Source: [Chlorobium] sp. 445 (lineage in GTDB: Bacteria; Bacteroidota; Chlorobiia; Chlorobiales; Thermochlorobacteraceae). From it: a DNA stretch of 64,000 bases. How positions within the stretch are numbered: the stretch's first letter is position 1; each line of letters begins with the position of its first letter. The position numbers and the translations under genes were made by a program. The notes beneath the pieces are model-generated. The model was given only the letters and a program-made list of their open reading frames with translations. It was not told the origin of the DNA and searched no databases. The stretch covers positions 1 to 64,000 of the forward strand of contig NSLH01000009.1 in assembly GCA_002763895.1 (NCBI GenBank), in the 5' to 3' direction. Positions 29,946-37,910 of this stretch are shown here, piece by piece.

Positions 29946-30013
29946 GCGTATTTTGCAGTATGCACGCATACCTTGCGCCATTTGCAACTTTTCATCATCT
30001 ACGCACGCGTGAT

Positions 30014-31575
30014 ATGCTCTCGCAACTTTCATCGGCGGCGGCGCTGGGCGTTGATGCCATTAAAATCGATATTGAGACGAACTTAGATAGTGGCTTGCCA
30101 TCGTTCATCGTGGTTGGCTTGCCCGATAGCGCTATCAAGGAAAGCCGTGAGCGCGTGTTGACTGCATTGAAAAATTCAGGGTTTAGTGTACCGCCCAGAA
30201 AAATCACGGTCAATCTTGCACCTGCAGATGTGCGTAAAGAAGGTACAGCATTTGATTTGCCTATTGCGATTGGTGTGCTAGCTTGCATGGGCGTCGTTAG
30301 TTTAGAGGTGCTCAAGGGTGTACTTTTGCTTGGTGAACTTGCGCTCGATGGCGCCTTACGCCGTGTCTCTGGTGCACTTCCTATCGCGGTGATGGCGGCA
30401 CGCGACAATTTTTCACGCATGATTGTGCCAAAAGAAAAAACGCCAATGAAGCTGCTGTGGCTGCCGCCGCACTCTCCTCTAGCTTGCGCATCTATGGCGT
30501 CTCTTCACTCAAAGAGACAATTGATTTACTCAACGAACCCGATCGCTTTGCACCAACTTCGATTAACCTTGACGATTACCTTACCTCACGAGCGACATAC
30601 AGTGTTGATTTTGCAGACATTAAAGGGCAGCAAGATGCAAAACTTGCCATGGAAATTGCGGCAGCAGGTGGACATAACATCATCATGATTGGTCCACCCG
30701 GCAGCGGGAAAACCATGCTTGCCAAAGCCCTACCCAGCATTCTGCCGCCTATGCTTTTTGAAGAAGCCTTAGAGACCACAAAAATTTATTCTGTCGCTGG
30801 ACTTTTACCACCGGGCGCTGCACTTCTCACACAGCGTCCCTTTCGCAGTCCACATCATACCAGCAGCAGTGTGGCTCTCATAGGTGGCGGCAATCAAGCT
30901 AAGCCCGGTGAAGTTAGTCTTGCGCATAATGGCGTACTTTTCTTAGACGAACTGCCTGAATTTGCTCGAGCTACGCTTGAAGTGATGCGTCAACCGCTCG
31001 AAGATCGTGAAGTAACGGTCTCACGTGCTGCGCTTTCTATCAAGTATCCTGCAAGTTTTATGCTTGTTGCTGCCATGAATCCCAGCCCTGCAGGTGCACT
31101 GCGCGACGAAAATGGGAACCTGACAGCCACGCCGCAACAGATTCAGCGATATCTTTCTAGAATTTCAGGACCGCTTTTGGATCGCATTGACATTCACATT
31201 GATGTACCAAAGGTCGATCATCGTGCCCTGCTTTCAAAAGAATCCGGTGAACGTTCTGAAGTTATTCGTGAGCGTGTCATCAAAGCGCGAGAAATTCAGC
31301 AGCGGCGATTCAAAGACTATCATGCACAATCCATATTTTGCAATGCACAGATGAATACCAAGCTCATTAAAGAGTTTTGTGCGCTCGATGAAAAAAGTGA
31401 ACAGCGCCTGCTTGACAGCATGAAGCGCTTAAATCTTTCAGCGCGCGCGCATGATCGCATTCTAAAAGTCAGCCGCACGATTGCCGATCTTGATGGCTCG
31501 CCGCGCATAGAGATGAAACACCTCATTCAAGCCATTCAATATCGCAGCCTTGATAGAGAATTTTGGAATGTTTGA
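30014..31575 (+). CDS. comM: ComM/YifB Mg-chelatase-like AAA ATPase (frameshifted)
   Basis: A hexameric helicase promoting branch migration during integration of DNA taken up by transformation. The N-terminal domain starts at ATG 30014 (MLSQLSSAAALGVDAI..., GLPDSAIKESRERV, VNLAPADVRKEGTAFDLPIA). The frame breaks at the A6 run 30435-30440; adding one A (or removing two) gives NANEAAVAAAL and the downstream AAA domain. That part has Walker A GPPGSGKTM, RPFRSPHHTSSSVALIGGG, FLDELPEFARATLEVMRQPL and the arginine-finger region SGPLLDRIDIHI. About 520 residues when joined. It does not belong to the magnesium-chelatase BchI enzymes despite the nearby bch genes. Confidence 0.9.
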
Positions 31576-31584
31576 TATCCAAGG

Positions 31585-34326
31585 ATGAGGCAGTCACATA
31601 AAGATTCTTTGACAGCAGCAAGCATTAAGGAAACAATTCTGAACTCAAAAATCAATCACTTTCTCGTGAAATCATTCTTTCTACTTCTCTTTACCGTTCT
31701 TTTTACGCCTCCACTTTCGGCGCAGGTCTACACGTTCTTTGAGAACCGTGCGATTACACCAGCTTCGATTCGCGCTTATCCACAAAGCCAGACACGCCAA
31801 ATACTCTCACTTGTCGGTAAGTGGAAAGTCAAACTGCCCAGCGGTCTTGAAAGTGAAATCAATGTGCCGTCCGCCTTTAGTTTTTCAGGCAAAGTTACCT
31901 TTGAAAAAGTTATGATGCTGCCGAAAGCATTTGAATCCCGTGCTCTGATGCTCGTCAGTGAAGGCATGGGCACACGCTGCGAGATTTTTTTTAATGATCA
32001 GTTTGTTGGGGCTCAGACCGTTGGCGGTGCGCCTTTCAAGATAGACATTCCCAGCGAAATGTTGCGATTTGGCGCAGAGAATACCCTCAAAATCATTTGT
32101 GACAGCCGCCTCAATGTGCCCAACGCTTTTCCACTCAGTCCCCAAGCCTATGACAAGCAAAATTTCGCAGGGCTTTTCCGCAATCTCTATCTTGTTGCCA
32201 CTTCACCGATTCGTTTTGATGATGTTGATTTCCGCTATCACGTCTCTGATACCCTAATCATGCCGCTTCAAAGAACACCAGCAGCGCTTCCTGATACACA
32301 AGTTACCGTCAAGCTCGACCTTACGGTAAGCGTTAAACAGTTTGACTTGCGTGGCTATAGCCTTGCCGTGGATTCTATAGGCAGAAAGCGTGTTGTGGCT
32401 TATGGTCAACTCTTCCTCGATACGCTGAAAGTCAGCGACAAAGTTCAGCTTGCACAATTCGATGCTGCAAGCAACCAAGTAATTCGTGCTCCATCATCTT
32501 TCCAGATTCTCAATGCGAAACTCTGGCAACCAACGTCACCTACACGCTACAGCTTGCACCTTGAACTTCTCACTTCAACTGGCGATACGCTCGACGACCT
32601 GACTTTCTTGCTTGGCTTCAGAACAGTTGGATTTGCCTCAGGTAACTTTCAACTCAACCGCAAACCCTTTTTGCTCAAAGGATTGCATGTGAGCGAAGAA
32701 ACAGAGCAAACAGCTAATGTGCTCTCACCTGATGATATTCTGCGTGATCTTATGCTGATTCGTAGTGCTGGTGTTAACGCCATCTGCTTGACTGAACTGC
32801 CTAATCCGATTTGGTATCACTTCTGCGATAGTCTTGGTCTTTTGTTGTTCATTCAACTGCCTGTACGCAACGCGCCTTCACGCCTGCTGGTGCAACCCGG
32901 CTTTTTGCAGCAGTCTGAACTTGCTCTGCAAGAGAGCATTTTACGCTCAAAATTCCACCCCTCGGTGATTGGCTACGGTCTTGGGGAAGGCATAGATTTG
33001 GCTGATACACCTGAAGCTTACTTGAAAGGACTTTCAAATCTTGTCAGAACAAACACACAAGGGCTTGTGTATTTTACCGCAAAATCCTTGCAACCCAGCC
33101 CTTATTGGCAATACTCCGATTTCATTGCCTTTTCTGACTTCAATGGCTCTTTTGATGCATTCAAGAATAAGTTTGATTTTGCTAAAACTTTGGCGAACAC
33201 CGAAAAACCGATTTTAATTGCTCACTACGGTGCCCTTGCTGAGACAGACAACCATAACGGCTACAGCGACCCACGTTCGCTTGAACATCAAGCTAAGTTT
33301 CTTTTAGATCGCTTTCGTCTGTTAGAAGAAGCCTATCAACAAAGTCAGCCTGTCTCAGGTGGGTTTGTCTATACCTTTTGCGACTATCATCTTGCTATTG
33401 CACCAGTTCTTGGCAGCGATGCGCGCGATCCCTATCTTGCAACTTTTGGTCTTCTCACGCTCGGGCGCGAAAAGAAAATCAGCTTTCAGATGCTCAAGTC
33501 GCTCTACCTTGGCGAGCGCGTCTATAACCCACCAATTGGCAGCCCAAAGAGCGACTTTTCACCTTCACTTATTCTTGCCAGTATCTTTCTGACTGCTTTG
33601 CTCGTCTATCTCATCAATGGCAATAGGCGCTTGCAGGAAAACTTGCAGCGCGCACTAGTGCGCCCCATAAACCTTTACATGGACATTCGTGACCAGCGCC
33701 TTTACTCTGCTTTCGACCCCATTACTTTACTTTTACTGTTGTCGCTGATTTGGGCATCTATTCTTGCTGCCTTTCTATACAGTTTGCGCACGAATGCTGA
33801 TTTGGACTTTTGGCTTTCGCATTTTATTCGTGCTGCTCTGCTCAAAGAAAGCATCAACTATCTTGCACTGCACCCACATTTTGCTATTCTCATCTTCGCA
33901 CTTGTCTTTCTTATTTTCTCTCTGCTCTTGCCACTGCTTAGCAAATTCCTCATCGGGCTCGTCAAACGCACAAGAGTAACTTATCTGCAACTGCTTCATG
34001 TTTGGACATGGGCATCAGCACCATGGATCATACTGGTCTTTGCTGCAGCTTTTATCGATCGTCTAGAAAACAATGCATTTAATTTCGTCGTGCTCTTTCT
34101 TTGTATCCTTCTTTTCCTTATTGCATTTAGCCGCTTCCTACGCGGTATCGCCGTCGTTGCAGAAGTCAATCGTGTTGTCGTCTGGCTCACAGGCTTTCTG
34201 CTGCTTGTGCTCAGTCTTAGTGTCTTGTTCTATCTTTCAGATACTTTTTATCACACATCTGCGTATTTGCAGTATCAATATCATGGACTCAAAGAGGGAC
34301 TCAAAATTATTTCTACACAATTGTAA
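31585..34326 (+). CDS. GH2-fold protein fused to a polytopic membrane domain
   Basis: A 913-residue protein with a signal-like segment at residues 28-46. Residues 75-205 form a GH2 sugar-binding jelly-roll (LVGKWKVKLPSG, GMGTRCEIFFND), 230-345 an Ig-like domain and 350-640 a GH2 TIM barrel (FQLNRKPFLLKGLHVSEET, IRSAGVNAICLTELPNPIWY). The acid/base Glu is present at 468 (GYGLGEG), but the nucleophile position is His547 (KPILIAHYGA, where GH2 enzymes have E-Y/F-G). Six hydrophobic helices follow (about 660-680, 712-735, 765-790, 808-825, 832-850, 865-885). It is likely a periplasm-facing glycan-binding or altered hydrolase anchored in the inner membrane. Ten bp after comM. Confidence 0.75.
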   Translation: MRQSHKDSLTAASIKETILNSKINHFLVKSFFLLLFTVLFTPPLSAQVYTFFENRAITPASIRAYPQSQTRQILSLVGKWKVKLPSGLESEINVPSAFSFSGKVTFEKVMMLPKAFESRALMLVSEGMGTRCEIFFNDQFVGAQTVGGAPFKIDIPSEMLRFGAENTLKIICDSRLNVPNAFPLSPQAYDKQNFAGLFRNLYLVATSPIRFDDVDFRYHVSDTLIMPLQRTPAALPDTQVTVKLDLTVSVKQFDLRGYSLAVDSIGRKRVVAYGQLFLDTLKVSDKVQLAQFDAASNQVIRAPSSFQILNAKLWQPTSPTRYSLHLELLTSTGDTLDDLTFLLGFRTVGFASGNFQLNRKPFLLKGLHVSEETEQTANVLSPDDILRDLMLIRSAGVNAICLTELPNPIWYHFCDSLGLLLFIQLPVRNAPSRLLVQPGFLQQSELALQESILRSKFHPSVIGYGLGEGIDLADTPEAYLKGLSNLVRTNTQGLVYFTAKSLQPSPYWQYSDFIAFSDFNGSFDAFKNKFDFAKTLANTEKPILIAHYGALAETDNHNGYSDPRSLEHQAKFLLDRFRLLEEAYQQSQPVSGGFVYTFCDYHLAIAPVLGSDARDPYLATFGLLTLGREKKISFQMLKSLYLGERVYNPPIGSPKSDFSPSLILASIFLTALLVYLINGNRRLQENLQRALVRPINLYMDIRDQRLYSAFDPITLLLLLSLIWASILAAFLYSLRTNADLDFWLSHFIRAALLKESINYLALHPHFAILIFALVFLIFSLLLPLLSKFLIGLVKRTRVTYLQLLHVWTWASAPWIILVFAAAFIDRLENNAFNFVVLFLCILLFLIAFSRFLRGIAVVAEVNRVVVWLTGFLLLVLSLSVLFYLSDTFYHTSAYLQYQYHGLKEGLKIISTQL

Positions 34327-34373: not shown

Positions 34374-37300
34374 ATGTACCTTTCACGTTTAGAAGTTTTC
34401 GGCTTTAAGAGTTTTGCGCAGCGCGTCAGTTTGAAATTCGATAGCGGTCTGACCGCCATCGTCGGTCCAAACGGCTGTGGCAAAACCAACATTGTCGATG
34501 CAATTCGCTGGGTGCTTGGCGAGCAAAAAACTAGTGTCTTGCGCTCCGACAAAATGGAGAATGTGATTTTTAATGGTACAAAAACACGCAAGCCGCTAGG
34601 TATGTCAGAAGTCTCCATTACGATTGAAAACACGCGAAACATTTTGCCCACCGAGTACAGCGAAGTAACCATCACGCGTCGGCTCTACCGCAATGGCGAA
34701 AGTGAATATCTGCTCAACAAAGTGCCTTGTCGCCTTAAAGACATCACAGACCTTTTTACCGACACTGGCATGGGCAGCGATGCCTACTCGGTCATTGAGC
34801 TGAAGATGATTGAGCAGATTCTTTCTGAGAATGCTGATGAACGGCGCAAACTCTTTGAGGAAGCTGCAGGGGTTACCAAATACAAGCAGCGCCGAAAACA
34901 AACCTTCAAAAAGTTAGAGACAACCTCACAAGATTTAGCAAGGGTTCAAGACATTATTTTGGAAGTTGAAAAGAAAGTCGCTTCACTTGAGCGCCAAGCT
35001 AAGAAAGCCGAGCAAGCACGTCAGGCACGCGAGGAATTGCGCCAGCTTGAAATTGCTATTGCCGAGCGCGAACTTGCCCAGATTGCTCGACTAACCCAGC
35101 CGCTTGCCGAACGCCTTGCCAAAGAAGAGCAAGAAAAACTTGTCCTCAGCACTCAAATCGATACCCTTGATGCCGATATTCAAGCCAAATCGCTTGCTCT
35201 CATTGATCTTGAAAAAGCCCTGAGTGCAGCACAGAAAGACGCTAATCAAAAAACTGAACTGATTACTGCTACTGAAAAACAGATTCTCTCCAACGAAGAG
35301 CGGCAAAAATTGCTCTTGCAGACGCTCTCCCGCGCTGAAGCTGAACTTGAGAGCATTCGCACCAAACTCTCAGAACTTGGCACGCGAAAACTGTCGCTGC
35401 AAGAAGATTTGCGTCTTAAAGAGTTAGACTTGCGCAATCACCATGAAGCCTTCGAGCAATCGCGAGCCGCATTTGCTGTAGCCGAACAGGAACTGCGCGC
35501 ACAGCGCCAGTTGCTCGAGCAAAAACGCACATCAATTGCTGAGCTATCCAAGAAAATTAGTGCCCTGACGCTTGAACGCCAATCGCTGCACAATCGCATT
35601 GAAAATCTCGATGCACAGCGCACTCAAAGCCATACACGCCGAAACGACCTGGAAGAAAAAATCACAGAGCGATGCTCGCAAATAGAAACGCTCAAACTTG
35701 AACTTGAGCACGAACGCCAGGTGCTGAGCGCACGTCAAACCGCTCTCGCCGACGCTAAAGCACATCGCGCACAGCTGCAGGCTGAACTTGAACATGAGAA
35801 AGAACACTTACTGCGCCTTCGCACCGACCGTGATGCTAAACACACTCGTCTGACATTTCTGCAATCGCTTTTGGACAGTTATGAAGGCTTGCCCGAAGGC
35901 GTCAAGTTCTTAGACTTGGAACAAAACAAACGCTTTGGTCTGGGCAGTTTGGCTGACCTTGTCTCAATAGATGAGGAGTACAAACTTGCACTGGCTGCCG
36001 CTCTTGGCGAAGCGCAAAGCCTCTACATTTCGCCTACAACCGACGATGCGCTGCAAGCCATTAGCGCACTTAAAACTGCAGCTAAAGGCAAACTCACCTT
36101 TACAGTGTTAGATAGACTCTCAGCGCCTGCGTTGCCCGATTTTTCAAACATAAGCAATGTTACACGCCTTATTGACATGGTGCGTATTGCACCCGAACTT
36201 CGCCCTGTTTTGGAACTTCTGATTGGACATGTGATTGTCGCTCCTGACTTAGAGCGTGCTGTGCAACTTGGCAACAGCTATCTGCATCTTGAAGTTGTTA
36301 CACTCTCTGGTGAAAAATTCAGTGCCCGTGGGTTCATTCGTGGCGGAAGTGTCAAAGCGTCTGAAGGACTTCGCATTGGCAAACGCGAGGAAATGGAACG
36401 GCTGCTTATAGAAACTGAGGCACTTCAAGTGCAGATCCGCTCCACCGAACAGCGCATCAACGACTTGCAACGCGCCATTTCTGACATCACACTCTCCGAG
36501 CTTGAGCAAGAAATTCGCCGCTCTGAACAGAGACTGCTAGAACTTGAAAAACGGCTGTCGCAAGCTGATTTTGAGCGCACTTCGTTTGAGAAAGAAATTG
36601 TGGAACTGACCGAACGCGTAGCCCTGCTCGATAGCGAAAAAGAGCAACTTGCGCGTGCCTTAGCCTCGCTGCAACCCGAACTTGATACAATGGAATCGCA
36701 CCTTCAAGCCCTCAACCTTGAACTCAATGAGCATCTGCGCGTTATTGAACTTTCCGAACAACATGTTCAAACCCAAAATGCAGCGCTGCAAGAAAAAAAC
36801 TTGCAACTCAAAGAGTTTGAATTTGCTGTCGAGAAACTGCGCGCTGCAGTGCACAGCGTGGAAAATGAACAAAACGCCAGTATGCGTCAGCAACAAAAAT
36901 TGCTCACTGAAACTCAACAAAGTCAAGACGAGATTTTTCGGCTTCGCAGTGAACTTGACACAATGAACGACAATTTGCACCGACTTTACACTGAGCGCGA
37001 CGTGCTGCAGAACCGCTGCCACACTCTCGAGGGCGAAGTTTCCACGCTTAAAGGCGAACTTGCTCAAAGTGAATCCAAACTGCGCGACCTTTCACGCCAG
37101 CGCGAAGTGCTCTCACAACTCATTCTGGAATTTCAACAGCAACTCTCTCAACATTCGCTTCGCGCCGAACATATTCGCACAGTCATCAAAACTGAGTTCG
37201 ATGTAGAACTCACACAAAAAGAGTTTGCTGAAACTGATGACTTTCAGATGCACGCCGCACAAGAACGCGCCACACAGCTCAAACAAAAACTGCGCTCGCT

Positions 37301-37910
37301 CGGACTTGTCAACGAACTGGCACTTCAAGAGTACGAAGAAGAAAAAAAGCGTCTTGATTTTCTTGTCTCTCAGCGCGACGATCTGCTCAAAGCTGAAAGA
37401 CAATTGCACGACACCATCGCTGAAATCAATAAAACCGCCGCTGAACTCTTCAACACGACTTTTCAAGCGATTCGTCAAAACTTCATCAACATTTTCCGCG
37501 AACTCTTCAATGAAGGCGATGAGGCAGACCTGATCTTGGAAGATGCGCCCGACCCACTGGAAGCCAATATCGAGATTATCGCTAAACCAAAGGGCAAACG
37601 TCCACAGGCAATCACCTTACTTTCTGGCGGCGAAAAAACCTTGACCGCAACAGCTCTGCTCTTTGCGATTTATCTTGTCAAGCCCAGTCCGTTCTGCATT
37701 CTCGATGAAGTCGATGCCCCACTCGACGACGCCAACATCGACCGCTTTGTCAAACTGCTCCAAAAATTTGCAACGGATACACAGTTCATTATTGTTACAC
37801 ACAATAAGCGTACCATGGAAGCTGCGCGCACACTCTATGGCGTTACAATGGAAGAAGAAGGCGTCTCAAAACTTGTTGCCGTACGCTTTAATGATACGCA
37901 GACAACCTAA
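34374..37910 (+). CDS. smc: Chromosome segregation ATPase SMC
   Basis: 1178 residues, the normal SMC length. Walker A GPNGCGKTNIVDAIRWVLGE (about 32-51), two long coiled coils, a hinge at about 500-665 (YEGLPEGVKFL...RGFIRGGSV), the ABC signature LLSGGEKTLTATALL (about 1080) and Walker B FCILDEVDAPLDDAN (about 1106) are in order. It condenses and segregates DNA with ScpA and ScpB, which are not in this window. Many antisense open frames across it are shadows of the coiled-coil codons. Confidence 0.97.
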   Translation: MYLSRLEVFGFKSFAQRVSLKFDSGLTAIVGPNGCGKTNIVDAIRWVLGEQKTSVLRSDKMENVIFNGTKTRKPLGMSEVSITIENTRNILPTEYSEVTITRRLYRNGESEYLLNKVPCRLKDITDLFTDTGMGSDAYSVIELKMIEQILSENADERRKLFEEAAGVTKYKQRRKQTFKKLETTSQDLARVQDIILEVEKKVASLERQAKKAEQARQAREELRQLEIAIAERELAQIARLTQPLAERLAKEEQEKLVLSTQIDTLDADIQAKSLALIDLEKALSAAQKDANQKTELITATEKQILSNEERQKLLLQTLSRAEAELESIRTKLSELGTRKLSLQEDLRLKELDLRNHHEAFEQSRAAFAVAEQELRAQRQLLEQKRTSIAELSKKISALTLERQSLHNRIENLDAQRTQSHTRRNDLEEKITERCSQIETLKLELEHERQVLSARQTALADAKAHRAQLQAELEHEKEHLLRLRTDRDAKHTRLTFLQSLLDSYEGLPEGVKFLDLEQNKRFGLGSLADLVSIDEEYKLALAAALGEAQSLYISPTTDDALQAISALKTAAKGKLTFTVLDRLSAPALPDFSNISNVTRLIDMVRIAPELRPVLELLIGHVIVAPDLERAVQLGNSYLHLEVVTLSGEKFSARGFIRGGSVKASEGLRIGKREEMERLLIETEALQVQIRSTEQRINDLQRAISDITLSELEQEIRRSEQRLLELEKRLSQADFERTSFEKEIVELTERVALLDSEKEQLARALASLQPELDTMESHLQALNLELNEHLRVIELSEQHVQTQNAALQEKNLQLKEFEFAVEKLRAAVHSVENEQNASMRQQQKLLTETQQSQDEIFRLRSELDTMNDNLHRLYTERDVLQNRCHTLEGEVSTLKGELAQSESKLRDLSRQREVLSQLILEFQQQLSQHSLRAEHIRTVIKTEFDVELTQKEFAETDDFQMHAAQERATQLKQKLRSLGLVNELALQEYEEEKKRLDFLVSQRDDLLKAERQLHDTIAEINKTAAELFNTTFQAIRQNFINIFRELFNEGDEADLILEDAPDPLEANIEIIAKPKGKRPQAITLLSGGEKTLTATALLFAIYLVKPSPFCILDEVDAPLDDANIDRFVKLLQKFATDTQFIIVTHNKRTMEAARTLYGVTMEEEGVSKLVAVRFNDTQTT

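Follow-up and report, generated by a model that had tools for sequence, protein, structure and literature searches.

A probable GH2-fold pseudoenzyme on a six-helix membrane domain, encoded directly 5' of smc in most examined relatives

What does a protein do that carries the fold of a glycoside hydrolase of family 2 (GH2) on a C-terminal membrane domain, and does its place directly 5' of smc, the gene of the chromosome segregation ATPase, bear on the answer? The question is raised by an open frame of 913 codons (31585-34326, plus strand) in the 64,000-nucleotide stretch of [Chlorobium] sp. 445 DNA analysed here, which we call the window. Its features are these:

31585-34326, plus strand: whole open frame, GH2-fold probable pseudoenzyme with C-terminal membrane domain (ORF, Pfam)
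31666-34326, plus strand: probable real gene, from a GTG start at residue 28 of the frame (GTG common to L001, L003 and L004)
31666-31722, plus strand: predicted signal peptide (hydropathy peak 26-44; likely cleavage before Gln47)
31795-32199, plus strand: GH2 sugar-binding-like domain, residues 71-205 (Pfam PF02837, under its curated cut-off)
32425-32622, plus strand: GH2 Ig-like domain, residues 281-346 (Pfam PF00703)
32638-33390, plus strand: GH2 TIM barrel, residues 352-602 (Pfam PF02836; HHalign)
32986-32991, plus strand: Glu468-Gly469, replacing the catalytic Asn-Glu (MAFFT and HHalign alignments)
33223-33225, plus strand: His547, replacing the nucleophile Glu (MAFFT and HHalign alignments)
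33559-33615, plus strand: membrane helix 1, residues 659-677 (hydropathy)
33616-33702, plus strand: basic juxtamembrane segment, residues 678-706, family consensus RRFRE..RAL.RPYNFFADIRDQRI (conservation, charge)
33721-34230, plus strand: helices 2-6, Yip1-like bundle, residues 713-882 (hydropathy; Yip1 matches in the family, the window's own part being without a Pfam match)
34374-37910, plus strand: smc, chromosome segregation ATPase, next gene 3' after a gap of 47 bp (NCBIfam TIGR02168)

Translation probably begins at GTG 31666 rather than at ATG 31585, because a GTG stands at residue 28 in each of the three closest relatives examined (L001, L003 and L004), two of which, L003 and L004, have frames that open shortly upstream of it. 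In the family alignment described below, the predicted signal-peptide cleavage region has Gln at position 47 in 57 of 82 proteins and Ala at 46 in 38. The gene upstream (29960-31575), which we read as ComM/magnesium-chelatase-like, is split in the window over two frames of 242 and 372 aa, and in three relatives forms one stop-to-stop frame of 531-551 aa; the split may reflect sequencing error or decay.

The three Pfam GH2 domains stand in GH2 order: Glyco_hydro_2_N (1.2e-04; 22.5 bits, under its cut-off of 28), Glyco_hydro_2 (2.1e-06; 28.9 bits, cut-off 23) and Glyco_hydro_2_C (1.3e-10; 41.4 bits, cut-off 21). The best solved GH2 enzyme matches the window protein at 1.3e-18, and HHalign of the family against Escherichia coli UidA and LacZ plus 20 GH2 enzymes gives probability 100 over 520 columns. 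The NCBIfam GH2 models score far under their cut-offs (best 89.7 bits, versus 950). Apart from the N-terminal peak at 26-44, hydropathy peaks lie at 659-677, 713-731, 767-785, 806-824, 834-852 and 864-882, so that the architecture read by the initial annotation, GH2 domains followed by six membrane helices, stands. An AlphaFold2 model of the full protein, built from a two-sequence alignment (window and L001), reached pLDDT 35 and pTM 0.22.

The GH2-membrane fusion proved to be a family. We searched 296 genomes of the window's own phylum in GTDB, Bacteroidota, and aligned 82 full-length proteins (of at least 790 residues), namely the window protein, L001 and 80 from the searched genomes; left out of the 82 were L081 (cut by a contig end, with smc following), L083 (in two frames) and the short relatives L085 and L086, and L002 is the window itself. 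Some match was found in 147 of the 296 genomes, many being ordinary GH2 enzymes, and the family was present in 83. The relative in Candidatus Thermochlorobacter aerophilum is 70% identical to the window protein, and among 56 aligned relatives identity falls as low as 21%. Within the window's own genome a protein query at E up to 10 returned no match besides the query itself, and a scan of genome contigs confirmed one locus out of 30 stretches with short peptide matches. Literature searches listed no paper with a title or opening abstract text on the GH2-membrane fusion or its smc linkage.

At the active site the initial annotation was half right. Both alignment methods (MAFFT with LacZ and UidA, and HHalign) place His547 opposite the nucleophile Glu (LacZ E537, UidA E504), as had been proposed. 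Glu468, which had been read as the retained acid/base residue, pairs with the NE-motif Asn of GH2 enzymes (LacZ N460), and it is Gly469 that stands opposite the acid/base catalytic Glu; the earlier reading was one residue off, and both catalytic Glu are therefore gone from the window protein. Glu553, named beforehand as a possible occupant of the nucleophile position, lies opposite a UidA Leu in HHalign and is Glu in 18 of the 82 relatives, which at the level of sequence alignment rules it out as the real nucleophile. At the positions of LacZ H357, R388, H391 and W568 the window protein shows Ser, Cys, a gap and Tyr, respectively; the equivalent of D201 is retained as Asp190.

Across the 82 proteins the acid/base Glu is found in 7, the nucleophile Glu in 27 and both together in none. 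Controls were 20 GH2 enzymes picked from the weak GH2 matches of the 296-genome search: all 20 have the nucleophile Glu and the NE motif, with the acid/base Glu in register in the joint alignment for 14, the other six reading ASLNES out of register. The equivalents of LacZ H391 and W568, present in 20 of 20 controls, occur in 6 and 18 members of the family, and that of R388, absent from the window, in 73. Few of the 82 have His at 547 (five) or Glu at 468 (nine), and neither at 469 nor at 547 is any replacement residue conserved. On a quick LG+G4 tree (43 of its 82 rows have unlike composition, and it draws 17 of its 79 inner branches as open), the nucleophile Glu changes at least nine times and the acid/base Glu six times, which argues for repeated loss or change rather than a single event.

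We conclude from these alignments, that is, from several residues and a control set, that the protein is very probably a pseudoenzyme, a catalytically dead GH2 fold. The suggestion that it is no standard beta-glycosidase thus extends to the whole family, which otherwise resembles the GH2 enzymes in domain order but has lost the catalytic Glu pair and several residues of the pocket, and which adds a six-helix membrane domain; an enzyme with another mechanism, also suggested, finds little support when no substitute residue is conserved, and an enzyme of sugar catabolism is disfavoured on the catalytic residues. Heparanase 2 belongs to another fold family and another setting than the window protein, and we know of no membrane bundle or smc linkage in pseudoglycosidases such as heparanase 2. 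The likeness (PMC12406646) is that of a glycosidase-related protein that has lost catalysis.

The membrane part is a constant of the family, with six C-terminal hydropathy peaks in 68 of the 82 proteins, five in 3 and seven in 11, which bears out the description of the window protein as membrane-tethered. A profile of this part matches 91 of the 296 genomes, some of which hold distant or short relatives, with a single match in each except one (two pieces). Two short relatives (L199:6088-8046 and L200:6117-7823) combine a TIM barrel with the membrane part and lack the two N-terminal GH2 domains.

In character the membrane part looks Yip1-like. Yip1 domains are five-helix bundles with a cytosolic N-terminus, and in the window protein five hydropathy peaks come after a positively charged segment. 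With E allowed up to 1, 60 of the 82 C-terminal parts match Yip1 (Pfam PF04893), the best of them at 7.4e-10, and in a 41-genome search one member scores over the curated cut-off, but the window's own C-terminal part has no Pfam match at E up to 1, Yip1 included. Comparison of the family's membrane profile with 18 Yip1 proteins was weak (E 4e-4, probability 35), only modestly above background: among the controls, the reversed profile gave 0.29, and a second membrane family gave 0.17 when compared with this family and 0.015 when compared with Yip1, to which it is unrelated. Unlike Yip1 domain proteins, the family has this part fused to a GH2 fold.

The best conserved part of the family is not the active site but the basic segment between helices 1 and 2 (residues 678-706), which ranks first among 17 compared regions with a mean top-residue frequency of 0.70, versus 0.40 in the TIM barrel. 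Its mean net charge is +3.9, and since positively charged segments face the cytosol (the positive-inside rule), the segment is predicted to be cytosolic and the GH2 part periplasmic. The motif is equally conserved in 23 relatives without smc beside them and so is not tied to the smc neighbourhood.

The gene 3' of the window's GH2-fold gene is smc (TIGR02168, 1035.6 bits, cut-off 567.35), and this pairing, on which the initial annotation was silent, is the main new fact of the analysis and may be what matters most. In 59 of the 82 cases (the window and 58 of 81 others) smc lies 3' on the same strand. The 58 measured gene-smc junctions have a median gap of 9 bp, with 47 of them at or below 30 bp and 54 at or below 100 bp; ten touch or overlap, and four measure 159-377 bp. 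A single change on the tree suffices for the smc-linked state, where shuffling gives a mean of 20.2 changes, and the 23 rows without linkage fall together in a fully supported group; smc linkage is a single inherited state and not many independent gains. Common ancestry accounts for the starting linked state, not for its retention.

Reduced relatives sit in the same place. Genome G164 retains just the membrane module, with the RPFNFFADIRDGR motif and still 5' of smc, and in genome G018 the start of smc is overlapped by a shorter TIM-barrel relative; the 14 kb examined for the short relatives L199 and L200 contains no smc. The stand-alone membrane module at L196:5821-6702 (294 aa) carries the RPFNFFADIRDGR motif directly 5' of smc, with no GH2 domain in frame. 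In genome G180 a 2081-aa open frame suggested a GH2-Yip1-SMC gene fusion, which is ruled out by an in-frame TGA that parts two genes; at L072:3100-3120 the GH2 frame and smc lie in one frame with that single TGA between them and the smc start right behind.

SMC does not need the protein in general: of 30 sampled genomes that lack the full-length gene, 23 still give an SMC match, and the other seven give none at E up to 1e-60. Where the gene is lacking smc has other neighbours, for example what we take from its sequence to be a dihydropteroate-synthase-like gene in two family f3 genomes. In the unlinked clade, at least 10 of 22 loci have genes 5' of smc that we likewise read as MreC-like. In L174-L177, L179, L180, L182, L186, L190 and L194, smc often lies about 0.5-0.7 kb behind the MreC-like gene. 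ScpA is encoded in the window's genome, on a different contig.

The most likely reading, which we propose tentatively, is of a protein anchored in the inner membrane whose GH2 domain no longer catalyses but binds something in the envelope, and which is functionally tied to SMC. The signal peptide would send the GH2 part to the periplasm, where it would most likely bind an envelope glycan or protein rather than cut it; membrane helix 1 would return the chain to the cytosol, and the basic segment and the Yip1-like bundle would come next. With its gene directly 5' of smc in most examined relatives, often close enough for coupled translation, the protein may be co-transcribed with smc and would serve on the envelope side as an anchor or sensor, coupled through its amount or its state to SMC and hence to chromosome organisation or division. 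Within this proposal a glycan-sensor role is possible, and partnership with SMC is plausible, a genuine functional link being something that we would entertain without counting on it. It is genomic context throughout from which this role is assigned. That the protein spans the envelope, its dead glycosidase fold reading or anchoring to the periplasm, and, at the cytosolic membrane face, acts on the SMC condensin, by whatever physical or regulatory contact, we consider unlikely.

The protein might instead help to assemble the envelope, as a factor for the type IX secretion system (T9SS) or for LPS, with smc a mere operon neighbour; its dead GH2 domain would then recognise an LPS-type glycan in the periplasm, and the membrane part would hold it near the export machinery. 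Taken singly we find this doubtful, yet it comes out nearly as likely as the tie to SMC because the juxtamembrane motif is equally conserved in the unlinked clade and because of the sprA and lpx neighbours. The gene of the T9SS outer-membrane translocon, sprA, adjoins the family gene in 13 of the 23 unlinked relatives (divergently in the six examined at 20 kb), but in none of the 59 linked relatives within flanks of about 1.5 kb; in one linked genome (G087) it is some kb off within the 20-kb locus. All 83 family-bearing genomes have a SprA match, versus 228 of 296 overall, and both SprA and the gene are missing from the 20 genomes listed for family f3 in the same order. This co-occurrence is confounded by common ancestry; moreover, 145 of the 228 SprA-positive genomes are without the full-length gene. 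Among 42 loci of about 20 kb (14.6 kb for L001), lpxB lies 3' in 18, lpxK in 16 and an LmtA-like methyltransferase gene in 14, with one more upstream. These genes are often located 3' of smc, but they are several kb distant and less constant than smc itself.

It is likewise rather doubtful that adjacency to smc reflects housekeeping co-expression and nothing else, the protein serving an unrelated envelope function. Such a view would account for a motif conserved without the linkage and for a clade of 23 whose protein looks unaltered although the link was lost: over positions 60-899, no column has more than 80% of one residue in the linked group and more than 80% of another in the unlinked group. 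Against it, the tree shows a single change at the smc junction and many at either outer flank. Within 28 linked loci the upstream neighbour changed 13 times and the gene after smc 10 times, counts that may be inflated by the simplicity of the gene caller, which also chose the 28 as those that it scored linked, with smc as the downstream gene by definition, and which scored L120 as unlinked though its genome (L064) is linked, so that linkage in that scoring takes two changes and not one.

Least of all do we expect an active glycosidase with an altered mechanism, in which His547 or Glu468 would do the chemistry: the nucleophile Glu of 27 members, the Arg388 equivalent of 73 and the window's Asp201 equivalent could be cited for it, but those two residues are shared by just 5 and 9 of the 82 proteins, the window's pocket has lost four LacZ residues (H357, R388, H391 and W568), and no substitute is conserved, which makes it highly improbable.

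By domain matching this family reads as beta-glycosidase in 83 of the 296 genomes, and annotations and CAZyme counts may be misled accordingly. The relation of bacterial SMC complexes to the cell envelope is little understood. If the proposed tie to SMC is true, then across much of the phylum the protein would couple the state of the envelope to the organisation of the chromosome, and a membrane-spanning protein kept beside smc over great divergence would offer a direct handle on the relation between SMC and the envelope.
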